11,796 nt of DNA, taken from contig CANHGC010000017.1 of NCBI GenBank assembly GCA_947460045.1, positions 1 to 11,796 of the forward strand. The letters are read 5' to 3'. This document shows positions 1,212-11,796 of the stretch, in pieces (position 1 is the first letter of the stretch; every line of letters begins with the position of its first letter). Both the position numbers and the translations under genes were made by a program. This DNA comes from Bacteroidota bacterium. GTDB taxonomy: Bacteria; Bacteroidota; Bacteroidia; NS11-12g; UBA955. The notes beneath the pieces were generated by a model. The model was not told where the DNA came from and did not search any database. It saw only the letters and a list, made by a program, of their open reading frames with translations.

Positions 1212-1625
1212 ATGGGAAGAATCATGGGCATCGACTACGGCAGTAAACGCACTGGCCTGGCCGTAACAGACCCCCTCAAAATGATCGCCCAGCCACTGGA
1301 AATGGTTTATACCGCCGACCTCAAAATGTACCTCGATTCCTACCTCTACGATGAAGATGTTGAGTGCTTTGTGGTAGGTATGCCCACCAACCTAAACGGC
1401 ACCGATACCGATGCCACCCAGCCCGTAAAGCAATTCATCGAAGCGCTCAAAAACGCTTACCCCAATATCCCAGTCAACACCATCGATGAGCGCCTCACAA
1501 GCCACGAAGCCCAACAAAGCATCATCGCCTCGGGAGCCAAAAAATCGCAACGACAAAACAAAGGACTCATCGATGCAGTGAGCGCCTCCCTCATACTCCA
1601 AACCTACCTACAGAAGATTTCATGA
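1212..1625 (+). CDS. ruvX: Holliday-junction resolvase-like RNase H-fold nuclease RuvX (YqgF)
   Basis: The product is 137 residues, normal for the family. RuvX/YqgF proteins have an RNase H-like fold and act in processing the 5' end of pre-16S rRNA and/or on branched DNA. Motifs in order: GIDYGSKRTGLAVTD at 6-20 with Asp8; VVGMPTNLNGT at 54-64; DERLTSHEAQ at 92-101 with Glu93; and GLIDAVSASLIL at 118-129 with Asp121. Asp8, Glu93 and Asp121 form the expected acidic metal-binding set. The frame stays open upstream to an ATG at 1119, but that ATG lies inside the terminator hairpin and adds 31 residues unlike the family. The ATG at 1212 (MGRIMGIDYG) fits family N-termini and lies just after a -7 box. 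The stop TGA (1623-1625) overlaps the def start as ATGA, so the two are probably translationally coupled. Confidence 0.93.
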   Translation: MGRIMGIDYGSKRTGLAVTDPLKMIAQPLEMVYTADLKMYLDSYLYDEDVECFVVGMPTNLNGTDTDATQPVKQFIEALKNAYPNIPVNTIDERLTSHEAQQSIIASGAKKSQRQNKGLIDAVSASLILQTYLQKIS

Positions 1626-2176
1626 TACTGCCTATCTACGCCTATGGCATGCCCGTGCTAAGAAAAAAAGCCGAAGACATCACCCCCGAATACGAAGGTC
1701 TCAGCACCCTCCTCGAGAACATGTTTGAAACCATGTACGACAGCAGCGGCATTGGATTGGCAGCACCACAAATTGGCTTGCCCATTCGTTTGTTCATTGT
1801 GGATGGCTCCGATATCGAAGACGATCCAAGTACCAAAGACTTCAAAAAAATCTTCATCAACGCCCAAATCCTCGAAGAATTCGATACCGCCTGGGAATAC
1901 GAAGAAGGCTGCCTATCAATCCCCTTCGTTCGCGCCAATGTCAAACGCAATGCCAAAGTAACCATCCAATACCTCGATGAAAACTTCGTGCAGAAAACGG
2001 AAACCTACGACGGCATGGCCGCGCGCATCATTCAACACGAATACGACCACATCGAAGGCATTTTGTTTACCGATCGCATTCACCCCCTCAAAAGAAATAT
2101 GTTGAAGAAAAAACTCAACAACATCTCCCTCGGATTGGTGAACGCACCCTACAAAATGAAATTTCCGAAAAAATAA
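1622..2176 (+). CDS. def: Peptide deformylase
   Basis: Peptide deformylase removes the formyl group from the initiator methionine of nascent proteins in the cytoplasm. All three family motifs are intact: GIGLAAPQIG at 43-52 with Gln50, EEGCLSIP at 94-101 with the metal-binding Cys97, and QHEYDHIEG at 138-146 with metal ligands His139 and His143 and catalytic Glu140. At 184 residues with a C-terminal helix (LKRNMLKKKLNNI), it is of ordinary length for Bacteroidota. The start codon overlaps the ruvX stop by 4 bases and is the only sensible choice, since the N-terminus MILPIYAYGMPVLRKKA matches the family. It is the middle gene of ruvX-def-ubiA. It should be an active enzyme. Confidence 0.97.
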   Translation: MILPIYAYGMPVLRKKAEDITPEYEGLSTLLENMFETMYDSSGIGLAAPQIGLPIRLFIVDGSDIEDDPSTKDFKKIFINAQILEEFDTAWEYEEGCLSIPFVRANVKRNAKVTIQYLDENFVQKTETYDGMAARIIQHEYDHIEGILFTDRIHPLKRNMLKKKLNNISLGLVNAPYKMKFPKK

Positions 2177-2205
2177 TGTAGCTTGCATGTATTGAGCCAC
2201 AAATC

Positions 2206-3105
2206 ATGCGTGCATATCTAGCCATCATTCGGCCCTACAACATCCTGCTCACCCTGCTTACCCAAGCGGTGTTCATGGTGGCTGCATCGCGAACCAACTA
2301 CATCAACATCGATTGGGAAAACATATCCTTCCCTCAATCCTACTTGGTCATTCTCACCTGTTGCCTCACCGCCGCCGGAGGATATGTCATCAACGACCTC
2401 TTTGATGTTGACACCGACCACGTAAACCGCCCCAACAAACGCATTCTCAAGCGCGATATTTCACACAATGCCGCCATCGTTTATTATGTTTTGCTTACTG
2501 CGGCCGGACAAATTTGTGGCTATTGGGCAGGTCTCGGCGTTGGACTGTTTGCAACTGCAATTGCCATTTTGCTCTACTTCTACTCATCAGACCTCAAAGC
2601 GATGGGATTGCCCGGAAACTTGCTCATTGCTTTTATGTCGGGCAGCGTCATCTACATCGCCTCGCGCGGCATACACGAAATTCATCGGGGTTACTTCGCC
2701 GAATACGCTTTCTTGGCTTTTTTACTGACCTTCTCCCGCGAACTCATCAAAGACGCTGAAGACATTGAGGGCGATAAGCAGCAAGACTGTGAAACCTTTC
2801 CGATTGTGCATGGCACCAAAAAAACCAACGTGCTCAGCAATGTCGTTTTGGGCACCATTGTAATCTTCCTCGGCGTGGCCAGTTATATCCTGTTCCTTGA
2901 GCCTTTTCTCAACGTTAAAACGCCTTTTCAAACAGCGTTGTTGATGTTCCCCACTTACCTCACCACCATCCTCATTCCGATGCTGTTGAGGGGCATGTAC
3001 ATGACAGCCAAAGCAGAAAACAAACGCGATTACAAGAAAATCAGTAAGTGGTTAAAGTTGACCATGCTGATGGGACTGTTCAGCGTGCTCTTTTCGCAGC
3101 CCTAA
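2206..3105 (+). CDS. UbiA-family membrane prenyltransferase
   Basis: This is a 299-residue polytopic inner-membrane protein with about eight or nine hydrophobic segments. Both aspartate-rich motifs of the UbiA superfamily are complete: Asn63-Asp64-x2-Asp67-x3-Asp71 (NDLFDVDTDHVNRPNK) and the second, Asp183-x2-Asp186-x3-Asp190 (ELIKDAEDIEGDK). They bind the Mg2+-diphosphate of the prenyl donor. UbiA enzymes transfer a polyprenyl chain to an acceptor such as a quinone ring or a glycerol phosphate. Homologues in Bacteroidota are commonly labelled geranylgeranylglycerol-phosphate geranylgeranyltransferase, but the acceptor cannot be read from sequence, so I give no symbol. It starts 29 bases after def and is probably co-transcribed with it; a weak TAGCTTGC box near 2180 could add a promoter. 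Its stop lies 1 base from the stop of the convergent DUF3109 gene. Confidence 0.88.
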   Translation: MRAYLAIIRPYNILLTLLTQAVFMVAASRTNYINIDWENISFPQSYLVILTCCLTAAGGYVINDLFDVDTDHVNRPNKRILKRDISHNAAIVYYVLLTAAGQICGYWAGLGVGLFATAIAILLYFYSSDLKAMGLPGNLLIAFMSGSVIYIASRGIHEIHRGYFAEYAFLAFLLTFSRELIKDAEDIEGDKQQDCETFPIVHGTKKTNVLSNVVLGTIVIFLGVASYILFLEPFLNVKTPFQTALLMFPTYLTTILIPMLLRGMYMTAKAENKRDYKKISKWLKLTMLMGLFSVLFSQP

Positions 3106-3106
3106 A

Positions 3107-3688
3107 TCAACGGGGTTTCTGGGATTCCCAAACCTCTGCAACGGCCTCAAACTCCTCATACCATGAAGGACCCATCTTGCGGGTCAACGCCTCCTTCAAA
3201 AACCGATATACAGGCACTTTTTTCTCCTCACCAACCCTACACGCTTCTGAACACAAATTCCAATTGTGGTAATTCAAGGCCATGTATTCACCATATTGCT
3301 TGGCCCTGATGGGATACAAATGACAGCTCAACGGTTTTCGAAACCATGTTTTCCCTGCGAAATAGGCCTTTTCGATGGCACAACCCGCAATCCCCGCCTC
3401 ATCATACACAACAAACACACACTCTCCCCCTGGTAAACAAGTGGTCACCAAGTCACCATCTCGATCCTTTTCATGAAAACCCACTTCTTTCACTTTCGCC
3501 AACCCCGCCGCCGCCATAAAAGGCCTCACATTTTCATATTCCGCCGCAATCACCTCCAACTCTGCCTCATCCAACGGCGCACCTGCATCGCCCTGCACAC
3601 AGCAAGCGCCTTTGCAGCTCAATATCTGACACTCAAATTTCTTCTCTAAAATATCTTCCGATACCAGGGCCTGACCCACAATAATCAT
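3107..3688 (-). CDS. DUF3109 family cysteine-rich protein
   Basis: This 193-residue cytoplasmic protein matches the DUF3109 family, which is widespread in Bacteroidota and has no established function. It has an N-terminal cysteine cluster Cys20-x4-Cys25-x3-Cys29-Cys30 (CQILSCKGACCVQGDAGAPL). Further cysteines are Cys84, Cys90 and Cys103, then Cys122 in the signature PLSCHLYPIR at 119-128, and Cys146 and Cys150 in NLCSEACRVG. The spacing suggests metal or Fe-S binding, as in the loosely similar YkgJ-type zinc/iron-chelating proteins; that is inference. The start (MIIVGQALVSEDI) fits the family. It is the last gene of the minus-strand operon, 12 bases after purE, and no terminator is visible beyond it. 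The purE link hints at a housekeeping role but does not define one. Confidence 0.88.
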   Translation of the reverse strand: MIIVGQALVSEDILEKKFECQILSCKGACCVQGDAGAPLDEAELEVIAAEYENVRPFMAAAGLAKVKEVGFHEKDRDGDLVTTCLPGGECVFVVYDEAGIAGCAIEKAYFAGKTWFRKPLSCHLYPIRAKQYGEYMALNYHNWNLCSEACRVGEEKKVPVYRFLKEALTRKMGPSWYEEFEAVAEVWESQKPR

Positions 3689-3700
3689 CGCAGCCGCAAA

Positions 3701-4210
3701 TTATTCGCCCAAGTATTTCTTCCAACCGTCCTGCTCCAATCGCGCCGCCTTGTCCATCACCTCCACCCGCATCGATTCTTTGTACTCAGCCACTTTTTGA
3801 CCAAGGGCTTTATCGCCAACCGACAAAATCTGCGCTGCCAAAATACCCGCATTCTTTGCGCCATTGATCGCCACCGTAGCCACCGGAACCCCGGGAGGCA
3901 TTTGCACGATGGAATACAAACTGTCCATCCCACTCATGGTTTTGGTTTGAACCGGTACACCAATGACCGGCAAATGAGTAAATGAAGCCACCATACCGGG
4001 CAAATGAGCAGCCCCACCCGCGCCAGCAACAATCACCTCCAAACCGCGAGCCGCAGCACTTTCGGCGTATTCCATCAAGCGTTTTGGCGTTCTGTGCGCA
4101 CTCACTACCGTCATCTCGTAGTCTACACCCAACGCATCCAAAATGGCGCCCGCCTCTTTCATTACTGGCAAGTCGCTATCGCTACCCATGATGATGCCTA
4201 TTTTCTTCAT
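3701..4210 (-). CDS. purE: N5-carboxyaminoimidazole ribonucleotide mutase PurE (class I)
   Basis: PurE converts N5-CAIR to CAIR in de novo purine synthesis. The 169-residue length is standard for the bacterial class I enzyme. The substrate-binding motifs are intact: [12 protein letters not shown] at 6-17, SAHRTP at 37-42 with His39 (equivalent to the catalytic His45 of E. coli), and [14 protein letters not shown] at 62-75. In class I systems PurK supplies N5-CAIR; purK is not in this window. The start ATG follows the pssA TGA by 2 bases, so translation is probably coupled. The gene lies inside an operon of otherwise mostly envelope-related genes, an unusual place for a purine gene, though the sequence shows no purine-specific regulation. 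Confidence 0.97.
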
Positions 4211-4212
4211 TT

Positions 4213-4956
4213 TCAGTTCGATTTATTCGCAAAGTTCGCTAAAAGCGATACAATAATGTACAAAAAGTAAAAAACGATGAATCCAGCCGACCCAAACAGC
4301 GCACAAGGAATGGCCAACCCCACCAACGACAATTTGTATTTGCGCAGTGGATCGTTAGCAGAAAACTTCATCGCCAACATGGGCAAATCGCTCACCATCA
4401 TATAGGCAGCCAGCAACGGCATGTACAACCAAACCCAAAACGAATTGAATACAGGTCTCACATCAATCAAAGGCTTATCAATGAACCACACATCGCCCGG
4501 ATTGCCCAAGTTGTAGCTCATCCAAGCAAAAGACCCCAACACCAACCCTGTTATGGGTGTAGGAATGCCCAAAAAGCCTGTGGTTTGTCGTGTATCAATA
4601 TTAAACTTGGCCAACCTGTATCCCGCTGCCAAGGGAATCAATAACCAAATGTAACCGTTGATGCAAAAGCGATCGGGCGGACAATATCCGTGATACTCCA
4701 TCATCGCCTTCCAAATCAAGCCTGGAAGCACGCCAAAAGTCACCACGTCGGCCATAGAATCCAGTTGCTTGCCCATCTCACCGGCTACACCCAATTTCCG
4801 GGCAGCAAACCCATCGAAAAAGTCCAGACCCGCACCCAACAACATCATCAAAAAGCCCATCCACTCCTGTCCCGCCATCACAAAACCTATCCCCAACAAG
4901 CCACAAGCCATGTTGCCCATGGTAATCATATTTGGAATTTCCTTAGTCCATTTCAT
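4213..4956 (-). CDS. pssA: CDP-diacylglycerol-serine O-phosphatidyltransferase
   Basis: This enzyme makes phosphatidylserine, the precursor of phosphatidylethanolamine, from CDP-diacylglycerol and serine in the inner membrane. The complete CDP-alcohol phosphatidyltransferase signature D-x2-D-G-x2-A-R-x8-G-x3-D-x3-D is present with no substitution: Asp45, Asp48, Gly49, Ala52, Arg53, Gly62, Asp66 and Asp70. The N-terminus [19 protein letters not shown] is typical of the PssA subgroup (type II serine synthases), which argues against PgsA. The 247-residue chain has about six to eight membrane segments, the last near the C-terminus ([17 protein letters not shown]). It begins 1 base after the stop of the EreA/ChaN-like gene and ends 2 bases before purE, so it is well inside the operon. 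Confidence 0.95.
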
Positions 4957-4957
4957 A

Positions 4958-7012
4958 TCAATCCATTGTATCTAAGTTGAGGGTAATCCCTACTTCGGCA
5001 AAAATACCCGCCTTTAAGCCACCCAAACTCTGTCCATTGACGTAGTTTAAGCCCGTTTCTTTGTACTGCCAACTGCGATCCTTGGCTTGCGATTCCTGAT
5101 AACCGGCTTTCGCATACAACGACAATCCATTGTGAGGCCTGTAGCGCGCAGAGAAATACGCACCCGGCACCCATTCACGCGACTCGATGGTTTGAATCCC
5201 ATTCACAACAGGATTTCCAAAATCAATGGTGGGTGGAACATATTTGAGTTTGTGGCGCACATGAAATGCACGCAATCCCAAGCCCAATTGCCAGCGCGAA
5301 CTACCCGCCGTATTGATACCGGCATCCACGTGATACACATTGGCTGTATAATTCAACCGCTCACCATTATCGGCCGAAAAGAGGGTTTTCTTGCCACGGG
5401 CATAACCCATTTCCATGTGTCCGTGCTTGCCCAAAAATGTCAAACCCACCGGCACATAAAACAATTTGGCATCCCCAATTGCGTAGTTATTGGCTTGAAA
5501 GTGCTGTAAAAACTCGTCGGATAAAAACTGAGGCGCCATGTACCGCGCTGCAAAGCTCAATCCAATATGGTAATCGCCTGGACCTTCGCTGCCATCGTAG
5601 TCATCCACTTCCTCCTCATCATCAGATTCTTCCGTAAAATCGTGGGCCAAGACAAAATCAAATTTCTTCGACAATTCAGCCAAAGGCGCAGCAGAATCCT
5701 TCGTGTGGTACAACATCATCCCTTTGTCTACGGTGCCCAAAATGGATTGTATTTCCGCGTTGATTGCCAAGGTATTTCCCAAATTCACCGCACAAATGTC
5801 TTTGCCATCAAACGATTTCTCTTTGTAAAAAATACCGATAGACAACACCGATTCGTTGTTCTTGAAATAACGGGTACGCAAGCGGGTCAACAAACTGTTA
5901 TACTCAAACCAACCGCAATCTTGCTGTTGTTTGTTGGTGCTGATGTGACAACGTCCAAACTGTCCGAAGAACTTACCCGTAGGATACTTTTGCAACAGAT
6001 TCACCATGTTTTTGTACATGTGCTCTTCGCGCCAGGCCACTTGCTGGGCAGTATTGTCGGTTTTCGTCCACAAATACCACTCCCGCAACTGTGAAAACGC
6101 CAAGGCATATTCTGCATAGTCATCGCCCAACCACTGCTTCCACACTTTGCTACTATCGGCATACCTACCATCAATCGCTGCGTGTTTGCTCAACCACAAA
6201 TACAATTCCATGGAACCGTCTTCGGTGTCGAAATCATCGTCCTCCTCATTCATCAAAATTACATCGAGCCGTTTATCCAATAATTCATTCTGCTCTTCAA
6301 CCAACTTTTTCACAATGAGGGTATCAACCGCCGACAGATCTACCGCTCGGGCTGAATCCACCATAGATTCTGACGTGCTTTCATCCTCTTCAGAATACTC
6401 ATCCTCATCGTCTGTGCCTTCCTTTTCGATTTGTTGGGCCAATTTGGTCACCATCATGGCACCCATACGAATGCTCGGTGGGGCCATGCCACGCTTTTGA
6501 ATCACATCGCCCAAACGCATCACGGTCATGTCGTAGAATCGCTCCACATCCAATCCATGCACTTTGATTTTCTGAGAATCCGGCAAAGTCTGGTTCCAAA
6601 CCCGAATGCTATCGAACAGATTCATATAGTCTTTCGAAGATGTGGCCTGTAAAAAGCGCTTCGCTGTAGAATCGGCATTGGTAAAATATCGCTCCATGTA
6701 AAGGGCGCGTGTGGGACTCAATTCAATCACAAAATGACGTACACCCGCTTGCTCGTGGAAAAACTTCAAAAAGCGGTATTCGCCCAACGAATTAAAGCTT
6801 GAGAACATGTGATTTTCCCCTGAAAGCATCACCCGGGCTTGGGCGGCACGATCGGTTAACGGCCTGATGCTCTTCAATTCCCCAAAGCCGTTTTGCTTGA
6901 AATCGATGTAATATCCGGTGGGCAGTACACCCTCCTCTGGAGAATCCTGCTTTTGCGCCTGTGCCGTAAAGGCCACTGCGAACAAACAGCCTGCTAATAT
7001 CCACTTTTTCAT
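4958..7012 (-). CDS. Secreted EreA/ChaN-like domain fused to an outer-membrane-type beta-barrel
   Basis: This 684-residue exported protein has a signal peptide (1-19) ending AQA, giving mature Gln20. Residues ~55-370 resemble the EreA/ChaN-like (erythromycin-esterase-like) superfamily: RVMLSGENH at 60-68 with Glu66 and His68, VRHFVIELSP at 91-100 with Glu97, VHGLDVERF at 151-159 with Asp155, and FFGQFGRCHIS around His356, where the family has its late histidine. Acidic inserts interrupt or follow this domain (about 200-216, 255-266 and 460-480). From about 484 to the end, short alternating hydrophobic strands (YHIGLSFAARYM, LFYVPVGLTFLG, HMEMGYARGKK, WQLGLGLRAF, LSLYAKAGYQE, GIFAEVGITLNL) suggest an outer-membrane barrel of about eight strands. 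The C-terminus is Asp, not the usual aromatic residue. The substrate is unknown; macrolide hydrolysis should not be assumed. The gene overlaps its upstream neighbour by 4 bases (ATGA). Confidence 0.7.
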   Translation of the reverse strand: MKKWILAGCLFAVAFTAQAQKQDSPEEGVLPTGYYIDFKQNGFGELKSIRPLTDRAAQARVMLSGENHMFSSFNSLGEYRFLKFFHEQAGVRHFVIELSPTRALYMERYFTNADSTAKRFLQATSSKDYMNLFDSIRVWNQTLPDSQKIKVHGLDVERFYDMTVMRLGDVIQKRGMAPPSIRMGAMMVTKLAQQIEKEGTDDEDEYSEEDESTSESMVDSARAVDLSAVDTLIVKKLVEEQNELLDKRLDVILMNEEDDDFDTEDGSMELYLWLSKHAAIDGRYADSSKVWKQWLGDDYAEYALAFSQLREWYLWTKTDNTAQQVAWREEHMYKNMVNLLQKYPTGKFFGQFGRCHISTNKQQQDCGWFEYNSLLTRLRTRYFKNNESVLSIGIFYKEKSFDGKDICAVNLGNTLAINAEIQSILGTVDKGMMLYHTKDSAAPLAELSKKFDFVLAHDFTEESDDEEEVDDYDGSEGPGDYHIGLSFAARYMAPQFLSDEFLQHFQANNYAIGDAKLFYVPVGLTFLGKHGHMEMGYARGKKTLFSADNGERLNYTANVYHVDAGINTAGSSRWQLGLGLRAFHVRHKLKYVPPTIDFGNPVVNGIQTIESREWVPGAYFSARYRPHNGLSLYAKAGYQESQAKDRSWQYKETGLNYVNGQSLGGLKAGIFAEVGITLNLDTMD

Positions 7013-9243
7013 TTCTGTGCTCTCCTTTCTTTTGTACGGGGCGATTTTTTGCCAACTGAAACTGCTACTGAATCTACACCAACTGCGTCGTAACGATCGT
7101 ACGATTCATTGGAATAGGAACGGAACAAAGCCTGGTTAAACTTCCAATGCAAACCGGCTTCCGCCATCACATACCAACCGGTGCTCTTAAAGTTGGATCC
7201 GTTGTTCATGGGTTCATTTTGATACAGCCAAGTGCCTTCACCCAAATCCCAAGCATAGCCGCCGGTGATGCGCGCGTAGAAAGGCCCAACGTGCAAAGTA
7301 GGCTCCACCGTTAAACCGTACAAATAAGCGGGGTTGGTCACCACAAAACTGGGTTGATCTTGATTGATAAAACCACCTGTTGTATTGGTAAATTTCTTGT
7401 ACCGCTGCTCTCCGTAACCGGTAAATCCACCAATGCCAAAGGTGAAGAATCGGCCCAAAGCAAATTGCGTCATATCGCTATATAAAACATACGTAGCACC
7501 GTAATGGTCGCCTTGCGTAGCCAAAGTTTGAGCAATCTGCAAGCGATGATTTTGCAACAACTTGCCATTGCGGGTATTTACACCAATGCTGATACCTTGG
7601 GTATTGAGGTTCAATTTTTCCGTTTCCGCCATCCCCATCACAGCGCGCATGGCGTTGAGGTTTTTTGACTGAAAGGTGGGTTGTATTTGGGTGTACGCAA
7701 TATCAAAAACCAATTTTGAATTTTCTCTGCCTGCCCATCGTGTGCGGTATTGCATAAAACTACTTTTGGATCTGTCTGCCAGTCCCACCCCTTCTTCATC
7801 CCAATCTGCCATTGCCGTATCCACCGCAGCCATCCAGTCTTCGCCATTTCCTTCGTTATTAAAAACCATGGTTTCAATATTCACAGTATCCATAAACTTG
7901 TAGCGATTTGTAATATCTGCAAAAAGTTTCACGGTATCTTGAGAACCAATACCAAACGGATCGTCTGAAAGTACAGCTGTGTCTGAACCACCCAACGCGC
8001 TCAAAGGCGGGTAAATGGTTGTATCGGATTGGGCGCTAGAGGAATCAGGCAACAACCGCATCAACAAATGCTCGTAAGTACCCGGTATGCTCATTACAAA
8101 AACGCGGGCCATATCGGTTGGTTTCACCCCTTCGCTGAACAAATCCTCCATCAAACTGGGCAGTACTTTTTGGCTGAATTTGTTCACGGCCATTTGCTCA
8201 ATGGGGTCGGAACCGATGACAAGTGCTCTGCGCTTTTCATTTTTCAATCTGCCCACCAATTCTGCGCGCTTTTGCAATTGCTCAAAGAACGTTTCGCCCA
8301 CCAACACACGATCGTTCACGGAATCGCGGGGGATGGGTTTCAACCAAGGTTTCAACGCTTGGAAAGTAGCCCTATTTTCGGGCAAAACATAATTTTCTAA
8401 ATCTTTAGAAATGCTCCACAAAGAATCCCTGAGTACTGTAATGGTTTCCACAGCACTGAAAGCGGGATCTACATCCAACGATTCTGTTTCATCTTCGTCA
8501 TCGCCCGGAACCTGTATTTCTTGATCTGCTTGCCACAAGCGCCACAATCCAACCGAAACCAAAGATCTGATCCCTTCAACTTGCGAGCGAATGCGATCTG
8601 GAATTTGCTCATCGTTCCGTTCAGCACCACCCAATCCGAGGGTTGAATCGGCCGGAAACAAAGCATTCAAATACGCCGCCAAGGCATACTCATATTCACG
8701 GTCGCTGTATTCCAAATACGAACCATTGGCTTTCCCGTACAATTCCATCGAAGCGAATGAAAATTGAGAAAACGCGGTACTGTCCACCTTCCTGCGGGCA
8801 TCCATCGCATCCATCACAGCCACAAAGGGGTTCTCGATATCATCATCAAACGACATTCGAACATAGTTCCGGTGCATTTGATCGGGGTGTTTCAGGTATT
8901 CGTTCAGCAAACCCACTTGCAAGGGGTGAAAATTGATGTAGGCCACCTCAAAACGCTGCAAATCTCCGGTTCGAATCAACGAAACCAGGTTCGGCACTTC
9001 AAGGGGTGTCTCACTATGCAAAACGTCATCGCACAGAGAAAAGAGCACAATTTTCTTTTGGTCTAGTGCGCTCAGCACCCGTTCTTGATAGGTGGTAGGT
9101 TTAGACTCATCGCCAACGTTGGTAGCCATGACCGTTGTATCTGCCGCGGCTGAGGTTGCAGCAAAATCCCATTGGGCATGCAAACCGCTCAAGCAAAGGG
9201 CGCAGGCAGCCAAGGCCCAATGCTTCTTTAAGTTCTTGTTCAT
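7009..9243 (-). CDS. Secreted barrel protein, probable degenerate EreA/ChaN-like paralogue
   Basis: The product is 744 residues. The signal peptide (1-23) ends LHA, leaving mature Gln24. The ATG at 9243 is preferred to the TTG one codon upstream. No family is obvious, but the N-terminal domain can be laid beside that of the next gene: KIVLFSLCDD at 64-73 against RVMLSGENH, RFEVAYINFHP at 97-107 against RHFVIELSP, the following EYLKHPD against RYFTNAD, and RALVIGSDP ending at Pro347 against KFFGQFGRCH. At each site the catalytic-type Glu and His residues are missing. Acidic linkers follow (GDDEDETESLDVD; DTAMADWDEEG). Strand-like segments from about residue 510 to 700 (LVFDIAYTQIQP, FFTFGIGGFTGYG, FYARITGGYAWDLG, GWYVMAEAGLHWKF) suggest an outer-membrane barrel. 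An unusual basic, hydrophilic tail of ~35 residues follows the last strand. It starts 13 bases after yicC. Confidence 0.6.
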   Translation of the reverse strand: MNKNLKKHWALAACALCLSGLHAQWDFAATSAAADTTVMATNVGDESKPTTYQERVLSALDQKKIVLFSLCDDVLHSETPLEVPNLVSLIRTGDLQRFEVAYINFHPLQVGLLNEYLKHPDQMHRNYVRMSFDDDIENPFVAVMDAMDARRKVDSTAFSQFSFASMELYGKANGSYLEYSDREYEYALAAYLNALFPADSTLGLGGAERNDEQIPDRIRSQVEGIRSLVSVGLWRLWQADQEIQVPGDDEDETESLDVDPAFSAVETITVLRDSLWSISKDLENYVLPENRATFQALKPWLKPIPRDSVNDRVLVGETFFEQLQKRAELVGRLKNEKRRALVIGSDPIEQMAVNKFSQKVLPSLMEDLFSEGVKPTDMARVFVMSIPGTYEHLLMRLLPDSSSAQSDTTIYPPLSALGGSDTAVLSDDPFGIGSQDTVKLFADITNRYKFMDTVNIETMVFNNEGNGEDWMAAVDTAMADWDEEGVGLADRSKSSFMQYRTRWAGRENSKLVFDIAYTQIQPTFQSKNLNAMRAVMGMAETEKLNLNTQGISIGVNTRNGKLLQNHRLQIAQTLATQGDHYGATYVLYSDMTQFALGRFFTFGIGGFTGYGEQRYKKFTNTTGGFINQDQPSFVVTNPAYLYGLTVEPTLHVGPFYARITGGYAWDLGEGTWLYQNEPMNNGSNFKSTGWYVMAEAGLHWKFNQALFRSYSNESYDRYDAVGVDSVAVSVGKKSPRTKERRAQK

Positions 9244-9256
9244 CAAGTGTTTTATA

Positions 9257-10144
9257 TTAAACGAGATTCAGGACTTGTTCTTTGATTTGCTCCAATTTTT
9301 CCTTCATCTGAACCACCGCTTGCTGCATGGGGAAATAATTGCTTTTTACCCCCATTGTATTCATTTCACGTCCCATTTCCTGGGCGATAAAATTCAGCTT
9401 TCTGCCCAAGGGCTCTTTTTTCAGGCAGGTTTTAAAGTAATCGAGGTGCTGTTGCAGGCGCTGCTTTTCTTCGGCGATGTCCCACTTATCGAGGTACAAC
9501 AGGATTTCTTGTTCGAAGCGATTGTTATCGCGCAGTTCTGCACTCACGTGCTCGGCCAATTGGCCGTAAATGCGATCGCGCAAGCCTTGCTTGCGGGGTT
9601 CTTCGTGAATAGAAACCTCGTTCAAATCCAACTGTATCGATTCCACCAATGAAAGCAATTTTACCCCCGTGGCTGCGCCCTCCTCTTTCCTGAACTGCAC
9701 CAACAAATCAGCGGCCTGCATCGTTAAATCAACAATGGTTTGCTTTACACTTTCATCGATGCTTCTCTCGCCCGATTGAATCACTTCTGGAATTCGAATG
9801 ATCTCCCTAAATGGATCGCGAAACTCCACACCCAAACTCGAACTCAACTCCTGATATTTATCCAAATAAGCCTTCGCCAATCCCGCATTGATGTGAATGG
9901 TTTGATCCTCCGCCTTCACATTCGGAAACGTAATACTGTAAGTACAAGTAATGGTGCCACGCTCCAATTTCTCATTCAACTGACGGCGAATCTGCGCATC
10001 AATCTCATACAAAAACTTTGGCAACCGCAAATCGGCCTCAAAATACCTGCCGTTTAATGCTTTGATCTCACATACCGCGCGCAATGTTGGCGTTTCAATT
10101 TGGGCCCGCCCAAAACCCGTCATACTCTGAATTTGAATATCCAT
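9257..10144 (-). CDS. yicC: YicC/YloC family endoribonuclease
   Basis: The product is 295 residues, the usual family length. YicC/YloC proteins are cytoplasmic endoribonucleases; E. coli YicC is linked to turnover of the small RNA RyhB. The N-terminal signature is MTGFGRA, followed by EIKALNGRYFEADLRLP. The conserved C-terminal DUF1732 block is complete: EEKQRLQQHLDYF, EPLGRKLNFIAQEMGREMNT, GVKSNYF and a charged final helix (MKEKLEQIKEQVLNLV). I place the start at the ATG at 10144 (MDIQIQSMTGFG). The frame extends upstream to a GTG at 10189, but those 15 residues are not family-like and run through the promoter region. It is the first gene of the six-gene minus-strand operon. yicC is often followed by gmk; here the two barrel proteins follow instead. 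Confidence 0.95.
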   Translation of the reverse strand: MDIQIQSMTGFGRAQIETPTLRAVCEIKALNGRYFEADLRLPKFLYEIDAQIRRQLNEKLERGTITCTYSITFPNVKAEDQTIHINAGLAKAYLDKYQELSSSLGVEFRDPFREIIRIPEVIQSGERSIDESVKQTIVDLTMQAADLLVQFRKEEGAATGVKLLSLVESIQLDLNEVSIHEEPRKQGLRDRIYGQLAEHVSAELRDNNRFEQEILLYLDKWDIAEEKQRLQQHLDYFKTCLKKEPLGRKLNFIAQEMGREMNTMGVKSNYFPMQQAVVQMKEKLEQIKEQVLNLV

Positions 10145-10225: not shown

Positions 10226-11218
10226 ATGAAACCAAAGTACATATTGGCCTATTGCACCGCCTTAACCTCCCTTTTTTGGGGCTGTAACCAAACCACAGAA
10301 ACCACCACAAGTGACTCCCCTGCAGCGTCGGAAACAGTCATCGTTACCCAGAAAAAAACAGGCTTCTCGGCCGATAACGCCTACAACCACATCAAGTCAC
10401 AACTCGATTTTGGCTTCCGTATCCCCGGTACCCCCGCCCACAAACAGTGCGCAGATTGGCTTTTGAAACAACTCAAAGCCCAATGCGATACCACCTATTT
10501 CCAGGTTGGACAATCCAAAAATCCCACTTCAGGCGCCACCATCCCCATCTACAACATCATCGGAAGCATCAACCCGCAAGCCGAAAAACGCATGATTTTC
10601 GCCGCCCACTGGGACAGCAGACCCATGGCAGATCAAGACGATAACAATCCCAAAGACCCCATCCTCGCCGCCAACGATGGTGCCAGTGGTGTGGGTGTGA
10701 TCCTCGAATTGGCGCGCATCCTCCACAGCGAAAAACCAGAATGGGGCGTAGATTTCATCCTCTTCGATGCCGAAGATTTGGGCGTTGCCGAAATCGAAAA
10801 TTCGTTCTGCTTGGGCAGTCAATATTGGGGCAAAAACCTTCACAAAGACAACTACAAAGCCAACTTTGGCGTACTGCTCGATATGGTCGGTGGCAAAGAC
10901 GCCAAATTCATGTGGGAAGCCAATTCCAACCAATACGCCAACTGGATTTTGGTGCATACCTGGCAAATCGCCAAGGAACTCGGACATGATAACCACTTCC
11001 AGTTGCAGAACATCGGTGCCATCACAGACGACCACAAATACGTGTACGAGGCCACCAACATCCCCATGATCGACATCATCCAATACAACGAAAACACAGG
11101 TTTTGCGCCTTATTGGCATACCCATGACGACAACCTAGATGCCATCGACAAAAACACCTTACAAGCGGTGGGGAACACCCTACTAAACCTCATATTCAAT
11201 CCTCCCGCAACCCTATGA
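10226..11218 (+). CDS. M28-family lipoprotein, probable glutaminyl-peptide cyclotransferase
   Basis: The 330-residue product has an N-terminal hydrophobic stretch ending LFWGC, with lipidation expected at Cys20, followed by a Thr/Ser-rich linker without the acidic surface-export signal. The M28 fold has AAHWDSRP at 126-133, ILAANDGASG with Asp151, LFDAEDLG with Glu183-Asp184, LLDMVG with Asp219, DDHKYV with Asp268, and PYWHTHDDN with Trp297-His298. This pattern resembles type II glutaminyl cyclases of Bacteroidota. By alignment with human QC, Asp151, Asp184 and His298 would bind one zinc and Glu183 would be catalytic. Such enzymes convert N-terminal Gln of exported proteins to pyroglutamate at the periplasmic face. 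An M28 aminopeptidase is the alternative. The frame can begin at a TTG one codon earlier; the ATG is preferred. Its TGA overlaps the bshB1 ATG (ATGA). Confidence 0.88.
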   Translation: MKPKYILAYCTALTSLFWGCNQTTETTTSDSPAASETVIVTQKKTGFSADNAYNHIKSQLDFGFRIPGTPAHKQCADWLLKQLKAQCDTTYFQVGQSKNPTSGATIPIYNIIGSINPQAEKRMIFAAHWDSRPMADQDDNNPKDPILAANDGASGVGVILELARILHSEKPEWGVDFILFDAEDLGVAEIENSFCLGSQYWGKNLHKDNYKANFGVLLDMVGGKDAKFMWEANSNQYANWILVHTWQIAKELGHDNHFQLQNIGAITDDHKYVYEATNIPMIDIIQYNENTGFAPYWHTHDDNLDAIDKNTLQAVGNTLLNLIFNPPATL

Positions 11219-11796
11219 CCACAAAAAACCTAGACGTTCTGGCATTCGCCGCCCACCCCGATGACGTGGAATTGGCCGCCAGTGGCACCCTCATCAAACA
11301 CATTCAGATGGGTCAGGCCTGTGGCATCATCGACCTAACCCGCGGAGAACTGGGCACCCGAGGCACAGCTGATGATCGCGATGCGGAGGCTGCCGAAAGC
11401 AGTAAAATCATGGGATTGACCGTGCGAGAAAACCTCAATCTGGGCGATGGATTTTTTGAAATCAACGAATCCTCCCTGCTTGCCGTTGTGACCCAAATTA
11501 GAAAGTACAAACCCAGCATCGTGTTGGCAAATGCGATGAGTGATCGACATCCCGACCACGGAAGGGCTGCAGAACTGGTCTCAAGGGCTTGCTTTTTGGC
11601 TGGTTTACCGAAAATCATCACAACATCTTACGAAGCCCATCGCCCGAAAGCCGTATACCATTACATCCAAGATCGCTTCATGAAACCGGATGTCATTGTT
11701 GATATCAGCGATGTTTTTGAACAGAAAATGCAAACCATTTTGGCTTTCAAAACCCAATTCTACAACCCCAACAGCACCGAGCCCGCAACCCCCATC
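11215..11796 (+). CDS. bshB1: Bacillithiol biosynthesis deacetylase BshB1, 3'-truncated by the window
   Basis: The frame is open from the ATG at 11215 to the window end, giving 194 residues of a family usually about 235-240 long, so roughly 45 are missing. BshB1 is a zinc hydrolase of the LmbE/PIG-L family. It deacetylates GlcNAc-malate to GlcN-malate, the second step of bacillithiol synthesis, in the cytoplasm. Visible motifs are AAHPDDVELAASGT at 12-25 (zinc ligands His14 and Asp17, general base Asp16), LTRGELGTRG at 41-50 and SDRHPDHGRA at 109-118 with the third zinc ligand His115. YEAHRPKAVYHYIQ and KPDVIVDISD further on are typical of the BshB1 group rather than distant LmbE proteins. 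It overlaps the M28 lipoprotein stop by 4 bases, implying co-translation. No other bsh gene is in view. Confidence 0.93.
   Translation, partial: MTTKNLDVLAFAAHPDDVELAASGTLIKHIQMGQACGIIDLTRGELGTRGTADDRDAEAAESSKIMGLTVRENLNLGDGFFEINESSLLAVVTQIRKYKPSIVLANAMSDRHPDHGRAAELVSRACFLAGLPKIITTSYEAHRPKAVYHYIQDRFMKPDVIVDISDVFEQKMQTILAFKTQFYNPNSTEPATPI

Follow-up and report, generated by a model that had tools for sequence, protein, structure and literature searches.

Most familiar examples of pseudoenzyme partners come from eukaryotic signalling. Among the closest described systems to the two genes considered here are the erythromycin esterases EreA, EreC, Bcr135 and Bcr136 (PF05139). In the passages of PMC6254334 that concern it, the TIKI superfamily, with a site of two histidines and two glutamates (2His/2Glu), groups ChaN, HopBA1 and RRSP, and PMT carries a pseudo-TIKI domain without this motif. 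We analysed an 11,796-nucleotide stretch, called the window below (contig CANHGC010000017.1 of assembly GCA_947460045.1; Bacteroidota, lineage NS11-12g; UBA955), in which two adjacent minus-strand genes, A and B, lie between yicC and a pssA-like gene and encode proteins with an Ere-like domain followed by a barrel. Our preferred reading, to which we give a probability of about 0.72, is that B is an outer-membrane-anchored Ere/TIKI hydrolase and that A is its pseudoenzyme paralogue, serving as a structural or regulatory partner.

B differs from EreA, EreC, Bcr135 and Bcr136 in its export-like start, its outer-membrane barrel and its E-x-H in place of E-x-x-H. The window protein also lies under the Pfam cut-off for that family, and an apparently dead tandem copy stands beside it. 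Unlike ChaN, HopBA1 and RRSP, B lacks any toxin context, and its chain also contains an outer-membrane barrel. A resembles the PMT pseudo-TIKI domain, as far as the passages on PMT describe it, in being a member of this superfamily that has lost the catalytic set; however, the PMT domain is one domain of a toxin, whereas A stands in tandem with, or is fused to, a paralogue of the active type.

The features of the pair are given below. Residue numbers in A follow the TTG numbering (745 amino acids), and solo proteins are B homologues with no upstream match to either the A or the B profile.

4958-7012, minus strand: gene B, open reading frame of 684 amino acids, predicted exported Ere/TIKI-superfamily hydrolase-type protein with a C-terminal outer-membrane barrel
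7009-9243, minus strand: gene A, 744 amino acids from ATG or 745 from TTG at 9246, pseudoenzyme-type paralogue of B
7009-7012, minus strand: ATGA shared by the stop codon of A and the start codon of B, read directly from the sequence
5633-6925, minus strand: Ere-like N-terminal domain of B, residues ~30-460, structural match to EreC
6809-6820, minus strand: GENH of B, residues 65-68 (E66, H68); GExH in 44/44 B and solo proteins
6722-6724, minus strand: E97 of B (in VIEL), placed on E113 of Bcr135 by profile alignment
6548-6556, minus strand: GLD of B, residues 153-155 (GxDVE motif)
5945-5956, minus strand: GRCH of B, residues 353-356 (H356); GRCH in 44/44 B and solo proteins
4967-5581, minus strand: C-terminal eight-strand barrel of B, residues ~478-682
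7849-9093, minus strand: Ere-like N-terminal domain of A, residues ~52-466
9028-9039, minus strand: SLCD of A in the place of GENH, variable within the A family
8203-8214, minus strand: GSDP of A in the place of GRCH, to within ~1 residue by predicted strands
7135-7761, minus strand: C-terminal eight-strand barrel of A, residues ~496-704

In the predicted model, the N-terminal domain of B has the fold of EreC and Bcr135. Residues 30-459 superpose on EreC (6xcs_A) with a root-mean-square deviation of 6.0 over 323 residues, and an acidic insert at residues ~205-256 is of low confidence (predicted local distance difference test, pLDDT, <50). All four residues of the active-type 2His/2Glu set are present (E66, H68, E97 and H356). 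The role of E113 of Bcr135, the residue aligned with E97, is taken from the relevant passages of PMC6254334. The alignment with Bcr135 and the fold match to EreC predict that the four residues form a single-pocket site. Window B scores 18.2 bits against Pfam PF05139 (Erythro_esteras), below the gathering score of 26.4, and this family is matched by 18 of 30 alignment members at E ≤ 0.01 (best 7.4e-11). The models of both A and B contain eight C-terminal strands with OmpA-type matches; PF13505 reaches 12.2 bits on B, below its cut-off of 28.7. In OmpA the barrel comes first in the chain, whereas here, compared with barrels of the OmpA/OmpX/NspA type, it follows the Ere-like domain.

Homology between A and B is detectable at the profile level. 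BLASTP of A against B gave no useful match (E 0.095), whereas profile-profile comparison with hhalign gave P 96 and E 4.8e-9 over the full length and E 1.2e-5 for the N-terminal domains alone, against 0.12 for a reversed control and 0.08 for the best of ten column shuffles. The model of A also has the EreC/Bcr135 fold in its N-terminal domain. A first-pass annotation of this DNA, made from the sequence alone, had described the pair as adjacent genes overlapping by ATGA, with a common plan of signal peptide, N-terminal domain, acidic linkers and barrel. The overlap lies at 7009-7012, within the minus-strand junction sequence ...GAAATGAAA..., and the plan is borne out by a signal-peptide-like start ending in AQ (judged by eye), acidic stretches and eight C-terminal strands in both models. 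The GENH, GLD and GRCH motifs of B also lie at the residues it gave. Its by-eye alignment of collinear blocks stood in part: profile-profile comparison shows the collinearity to be beyond chance and the order of the blocks is right, but some are out of register. The RYFTNAD/EYLKHPD block agrees exactly with hhalign, and RVML/KIVL and GENH/SLCD are consistent with predicted strands. RHFVIEL/RFEVAYI is ~2 residues off, with hhalign pairing N105 of A with E97 of B; the fourth block is ~3 residues off (strands A 163-166 and B 150-153), and GSDP/GRCH ~1 residue off (strands A 341-345 and B 348-352). Among the outcomes named there as fatal to its proposal were different N-terminal folds and missing C-terminal barrels; the models, of which that of A is poor, show a shared fold and two barrels.

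A has lost the catalytic set that B retains. Window A has none of the six motifs tested, and among upstream copies GExH occurs in 0/31 and GRCH in 2/31. A matched nothing at E ≤ 1 in Pfam, NCBIfam or the PDB sequences. Within its subfamily it has invariant residues of its own. A basic tail ends the protein (window 7012-7053, GKKSPRTKERRAQK); this tail is common to the close A subfamily and does not occur in B.

Intermediate states of this loss exist in other genera of the family (genera are given g-numbers, loci L-numbers). The upstream genes of g8, g6 and g12 still match the B profile at 98-334 bits. We read them column by column in the alignment at the places of B E66, H68, E97 and H356, in that order:

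L046 upstream copy: E, F, E, H (the GENH His alone lost)
L047 upstream copy: V, E, E, E
L048 upstream copy: Q, S, A, H
L049 upstream copy: I, K, P, H
L050 upstream copy: I, R, P, F
L051 upstream copy: I, R, P, Y
L052 upstream copy: V, H, P, Y (His at the H68 place, without the Glu)
L053 upstream copy: I, R, P, Y

None of the eight keeps the whole set, and the GENH His is missing in seven. Window A is linked to these intermediates through the A part of natural fusion proteins described below: window A aligns with fusion A across 313 columns (E 1.8e-17), fusion A matches the g12 upstream copies at E 1.5e-7, and g12 in turn matches g8 at 1.1e-48 and g6 at 3.6e-44. Weaker links join g1 to g14 (E 7e-5) and g14 to g12 (E 2.5e-5).

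The direction of the change was read from a tree of 63 N-terminal domains rooted on ten relatives from a sister family. Seven upstream copies (from g6, g8 and g12) entered the tree; those of other genera were too diverged to align, and the partial L053 was omitted. The seven form one clade (100/98), and A and B group together (99/99), with the g2 gene of L099 inside the group. Solo genes of g4, g9, g11 and g13 fall outside it. A topology joining B with the solo genes to the exclusion of A was rejected by the approximately unbiased test (p 1.7e-4, or 5e-5 after removal of five fast A copies), whereas a group of exactly A and B, excluding the long-branched L099, was not (p 0.33 and 0.39). The tree thus points to a single duplication, later than the split of the solo genes, with the barrel apparently acquired before it. 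Such a duplication fits the yicC-[gene]-pssA site, where it most likely took place; in g11, whose solo gene is the nearest, that gene is the only one separating yicC from the pssA-like gene. The earlier proposal of duplication followed by loss of catalysis in the upstream copy is supported by fold, profiles, intermediates and rooted tree alike.

Pairing of the two genes is conserved. The B profile matches 59 of 70 family genomes. A stands directly upstream of B in 37 of these, in one case fused to it; fifteen have a solo gene, and seven are split over two contigs (G040), a weak candidate (G001) or undecided (G004, G033, G034, G046 and G063). Loci L110-L113 were left out of the locus analysis. 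Pairs occur in seven genera, the A stop and B start overlap as ATGA in 22/35 pairs, and 33/35 have an ATG between -11 and +7 bases. At L007 (G042, positions 2400-6755; UBA955, B 97% identical in the best segment), A and B each consist of two overlapping or adjoining open reading frames, possibly through assembly frameshifts. The g2 locus L099 (3870-5666) encodes, between yicC and a B-like gene, a protein of ~600 amino acids with a signal-peptide-like start, possibly an extremely diverged A; its weak match was to the barrel alone (E 3.7e-4), and it was not counted as a pair. In sister family f2, the three upstream genes tested as hidden A copies gave no profile match. A B-like gene at L113 (G004, C94:4485-5430) appears remnant-like, its matched pieces carrying several stops.

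In G024 (g7), a single open frame after yicC encodes A and then B with no stop between them, and leaves the contig at residue 1098. Four full-length counterparts were found in the protein database:

P0147: 1494 amino acids, 100% to the G024 query
P0148: 1496 amino acids, 89% to the G024 query
P0149: 1479 amino acids, 87% to the G024 query
P0150: 1461 amino acids, 61% to the G024 query

GENH, GLDVE, WREE and GRCH each occur once in all four, within the B part. The A parts of three lack GExH; P0150 has one at residue 365, nowhere near the position that corresponds to GENH, which we take as chance. The linker is less hydrophobic than the N-terminus (15-residue maxima 0.61-1.15 vs 1.54-1.85). Given that eight strands place both ends of a barrel on one side, a fused chain would be accommodated provided that the two Ere-like domains share one face, presumably the periplasmic one. 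The occurrence of this fusion in one lineage is good, if indirect, evidence that A and B work together.

A also appears to be kept by selection without its catalytic residues. The ratio of nonsynonymous to synonymous substitution rates (dN/dS) of A was computable in 6 of 13 pairs: 0.11 and 0.12 in the window pairs, where dS (1.98 and 1.35) is near saturation, and 0.16-0.44 in the other four, several dS values being saturated or close to it. Using a fixed cut near the C-terminus to separate the domains, identity in the four most distant of the 13 pairs was 23-34% for the A N-terminal domain, 46-56% for that of B and 28-48% for the barrels. The A N-terminal domain is the least conserved part in these four (joint least in one) and that of B the best conserved; in the nearest pairs the two parts of A differ little. 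Across 25 of 26 loci outside the window (L012, with a missing neighbour, was omitted), the tree distances of A track those of B, with r 0.93 and a partial r of 0.49 after removal of three operon neighbours; partial values for A-Pss and B-Pss were 0.04 and 0.21. We attach no significance to any of these values.

Under our preferred reading, B would be a hydrolase held in the outer membrane by its eight-strand barrel, with its N-terminal domain in the periplasm, where E66, H68, E97 and H356 may activate a water molecule to attack a bond of ester-like or amide-like type. A, as a tandem duplicate, would have retained fold and barrel, lost the catalytic set and become an inactive structural or regulatory partner, made beside B by putatively coupled translation and, in one lineage, within the same chain. 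The hetero-complex at the outer membrane that the first-pass annotation had suggested is one that we, too, only infer, and it gains weight from the natural fusions, the conserved order and overlap and the rate covariation.

Several observations weigh against this reading. The A model is poor (mean pLDDT 57), and Foldseek with the whole model listed barrels almost exclusively and, among the top 50, nothing from the Ere family; a second structural comparison (VIA) did list the Ere family, with a fold match to EreC. Window A is too diverged to be placed in the tree. In profile linking, the strongest match among the reversed controls had E 0.0043; the comparisons of g1 with g10, g8 and g6, of g14 with g10, g8 and fusion A, and of g10 with g12 and g8 were no better, and the g1-g12 link barely beats it (E 0.0025). 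Loss was not uniform, since the intermediates retain R328 in 8/8 and D155 in 7/8, and the residue of L052 at the H68 place is a His. Finally, fifteen family genomes have a solo gene only, by profile, so the hydrolase would not need A everywhere.

The genes around the pair in the window are as follows.

4213-4956, minus strand: pssA-like CDP-alcohol phosphatidyltransferase, the next gene downstream of B (TIGR00473, 94.3 bits, cut-off 107)
9257-10144, minus strand: yicC, directly upstream of A (TIGR00255, 184.9 bits, above the cut-off of 167.5)
3701-4210, minus strand: purE
3107-3688, minus strand: a gene that we take to be DUF3109

A single base separates the end of B (4958) from the start of the pssA-like gene (4956). 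The order yicC-A-B-pssA-purE-DUF3109 is long and conserved across genera, and the opposite strand carries UbiA-type, def and yqgF genes (window 1622-10144 and family loci). Positions 11215-11796, truncated by the window end, strongly match the bacillithiol deacetylase BshB1 (249.7 bits, exceeding the cut-off). Promoter and terminator scans scored no higher than shuffled sequence. A search of the window's own genome (1.78 Mb, 80% complete) returned only A and B themselves, with no further copy detectable. Across the phylum, with ~3 candidates scored per genome, matches occurred in 3/392 genomes including this one; the other two covered the N-terminal part only, in open frames of 425 and 353 amino acids.

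A pssA-like gene comes immediately after B, or after the solo homologue of B, in 51 of the 56 family genomes examined on that side (loci L003-L105), and the five exceptions are all among ten g4 genomes. At several loci of g4 and g9, none of the other eight window neighbours was found in the sequence retrieved. The adjacency occurs in 0/14 loci of sister family f2. The window copy is the only such gene found in its own genome. This adjacency is a weak hint of a role for A and B near envelope lipid metabolism. A bolder proposal, which we consider clearly less likely than not, is that a two-barrel A-B complex in the outer membrane hydrolyses or edits a PssA-derived envelope lipid, that dead A gates substrate or presents it to B and that the fusion freezes the complex as a single chain.

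It is rather unlikely that A is instead a neofunctionalised binding protein with its own ligand, standing beside B only through operon inheritance. Such a protein would suit the fast evolution of A (mean tree distance 4.34, vs 3.49 for B and 1.26 for YicC), the invariant residues of its subfamily and its basic tail, but the four full-length fusions, the pairs in seven genera with ATGA overlap in 22/35, and a partial rate correlation of A with B and not with Pss speak for a tie to B itself. Less probable again is a diverged enzyme with different or weak activity, represented by A or by some upstream copies. L046 lacks only the H68 equivalent, R328 is kept in all eight intermediates, and in the passages of PMC6254334 on RRSP the second His and the Glu are assigned as the essential pair; against this, window A has 0/6 motifs and its subfamily varies at the GENH position. 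Very little probability goes to B as a barrel-anchored macrolide-resistance esterase with A as a decaying copy without a role: fold and motifs are similar to those of EreC, and the B relative P0134 is named an erythromycin esterase family protein by its source, but B lies among housekeeping genes in a conserved, operon-like arrangement, falls under the Pfam Ere cut-off and has ExH rather than ExxH spacing, and the dN/dS of A speaks against decay. Equally improbable, and already disfavoured, is that A and B share the barrel only: on the first loci the signal of the B profile in A proteins did lie mostly in the barrels, but the controlled N-terminal profile matches, the intermediates at 98-334 bits and the fold match of A to EreC contradict it.

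Within the open-access library searched, subscription papers and preprints being outside its scope, we found no paper joining erythromycin esterase with a pseudoenzyme or with phosphatidylserine synthase. One open-access paper retrieved for erythromycin esterase with outer membrane, Bacteroidetes and beta-barrel names a homologue of unclear function and, in its relevant part, no such fusion. What this analysis adds is a polarised tree, a graded series of intermediates, a naturally occurring fusion and the link to pssA.

The birth of a pseudoenzyme partner can here be followed in bacteria through a polarised duplication, living stages of loss, a pairing that was kept and a fusion of dead and live-type copies. 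The question of how a dead paralogue turns into a partner thereby becomes testable, and an envelope function is suggested for a fold otherwise associated with the cleavage of antibiotics. If the lipid-editing complex proposed above is real, it would mean an envelope-lipid role of the Ere/TIKI fold under pseudoenzyme control.
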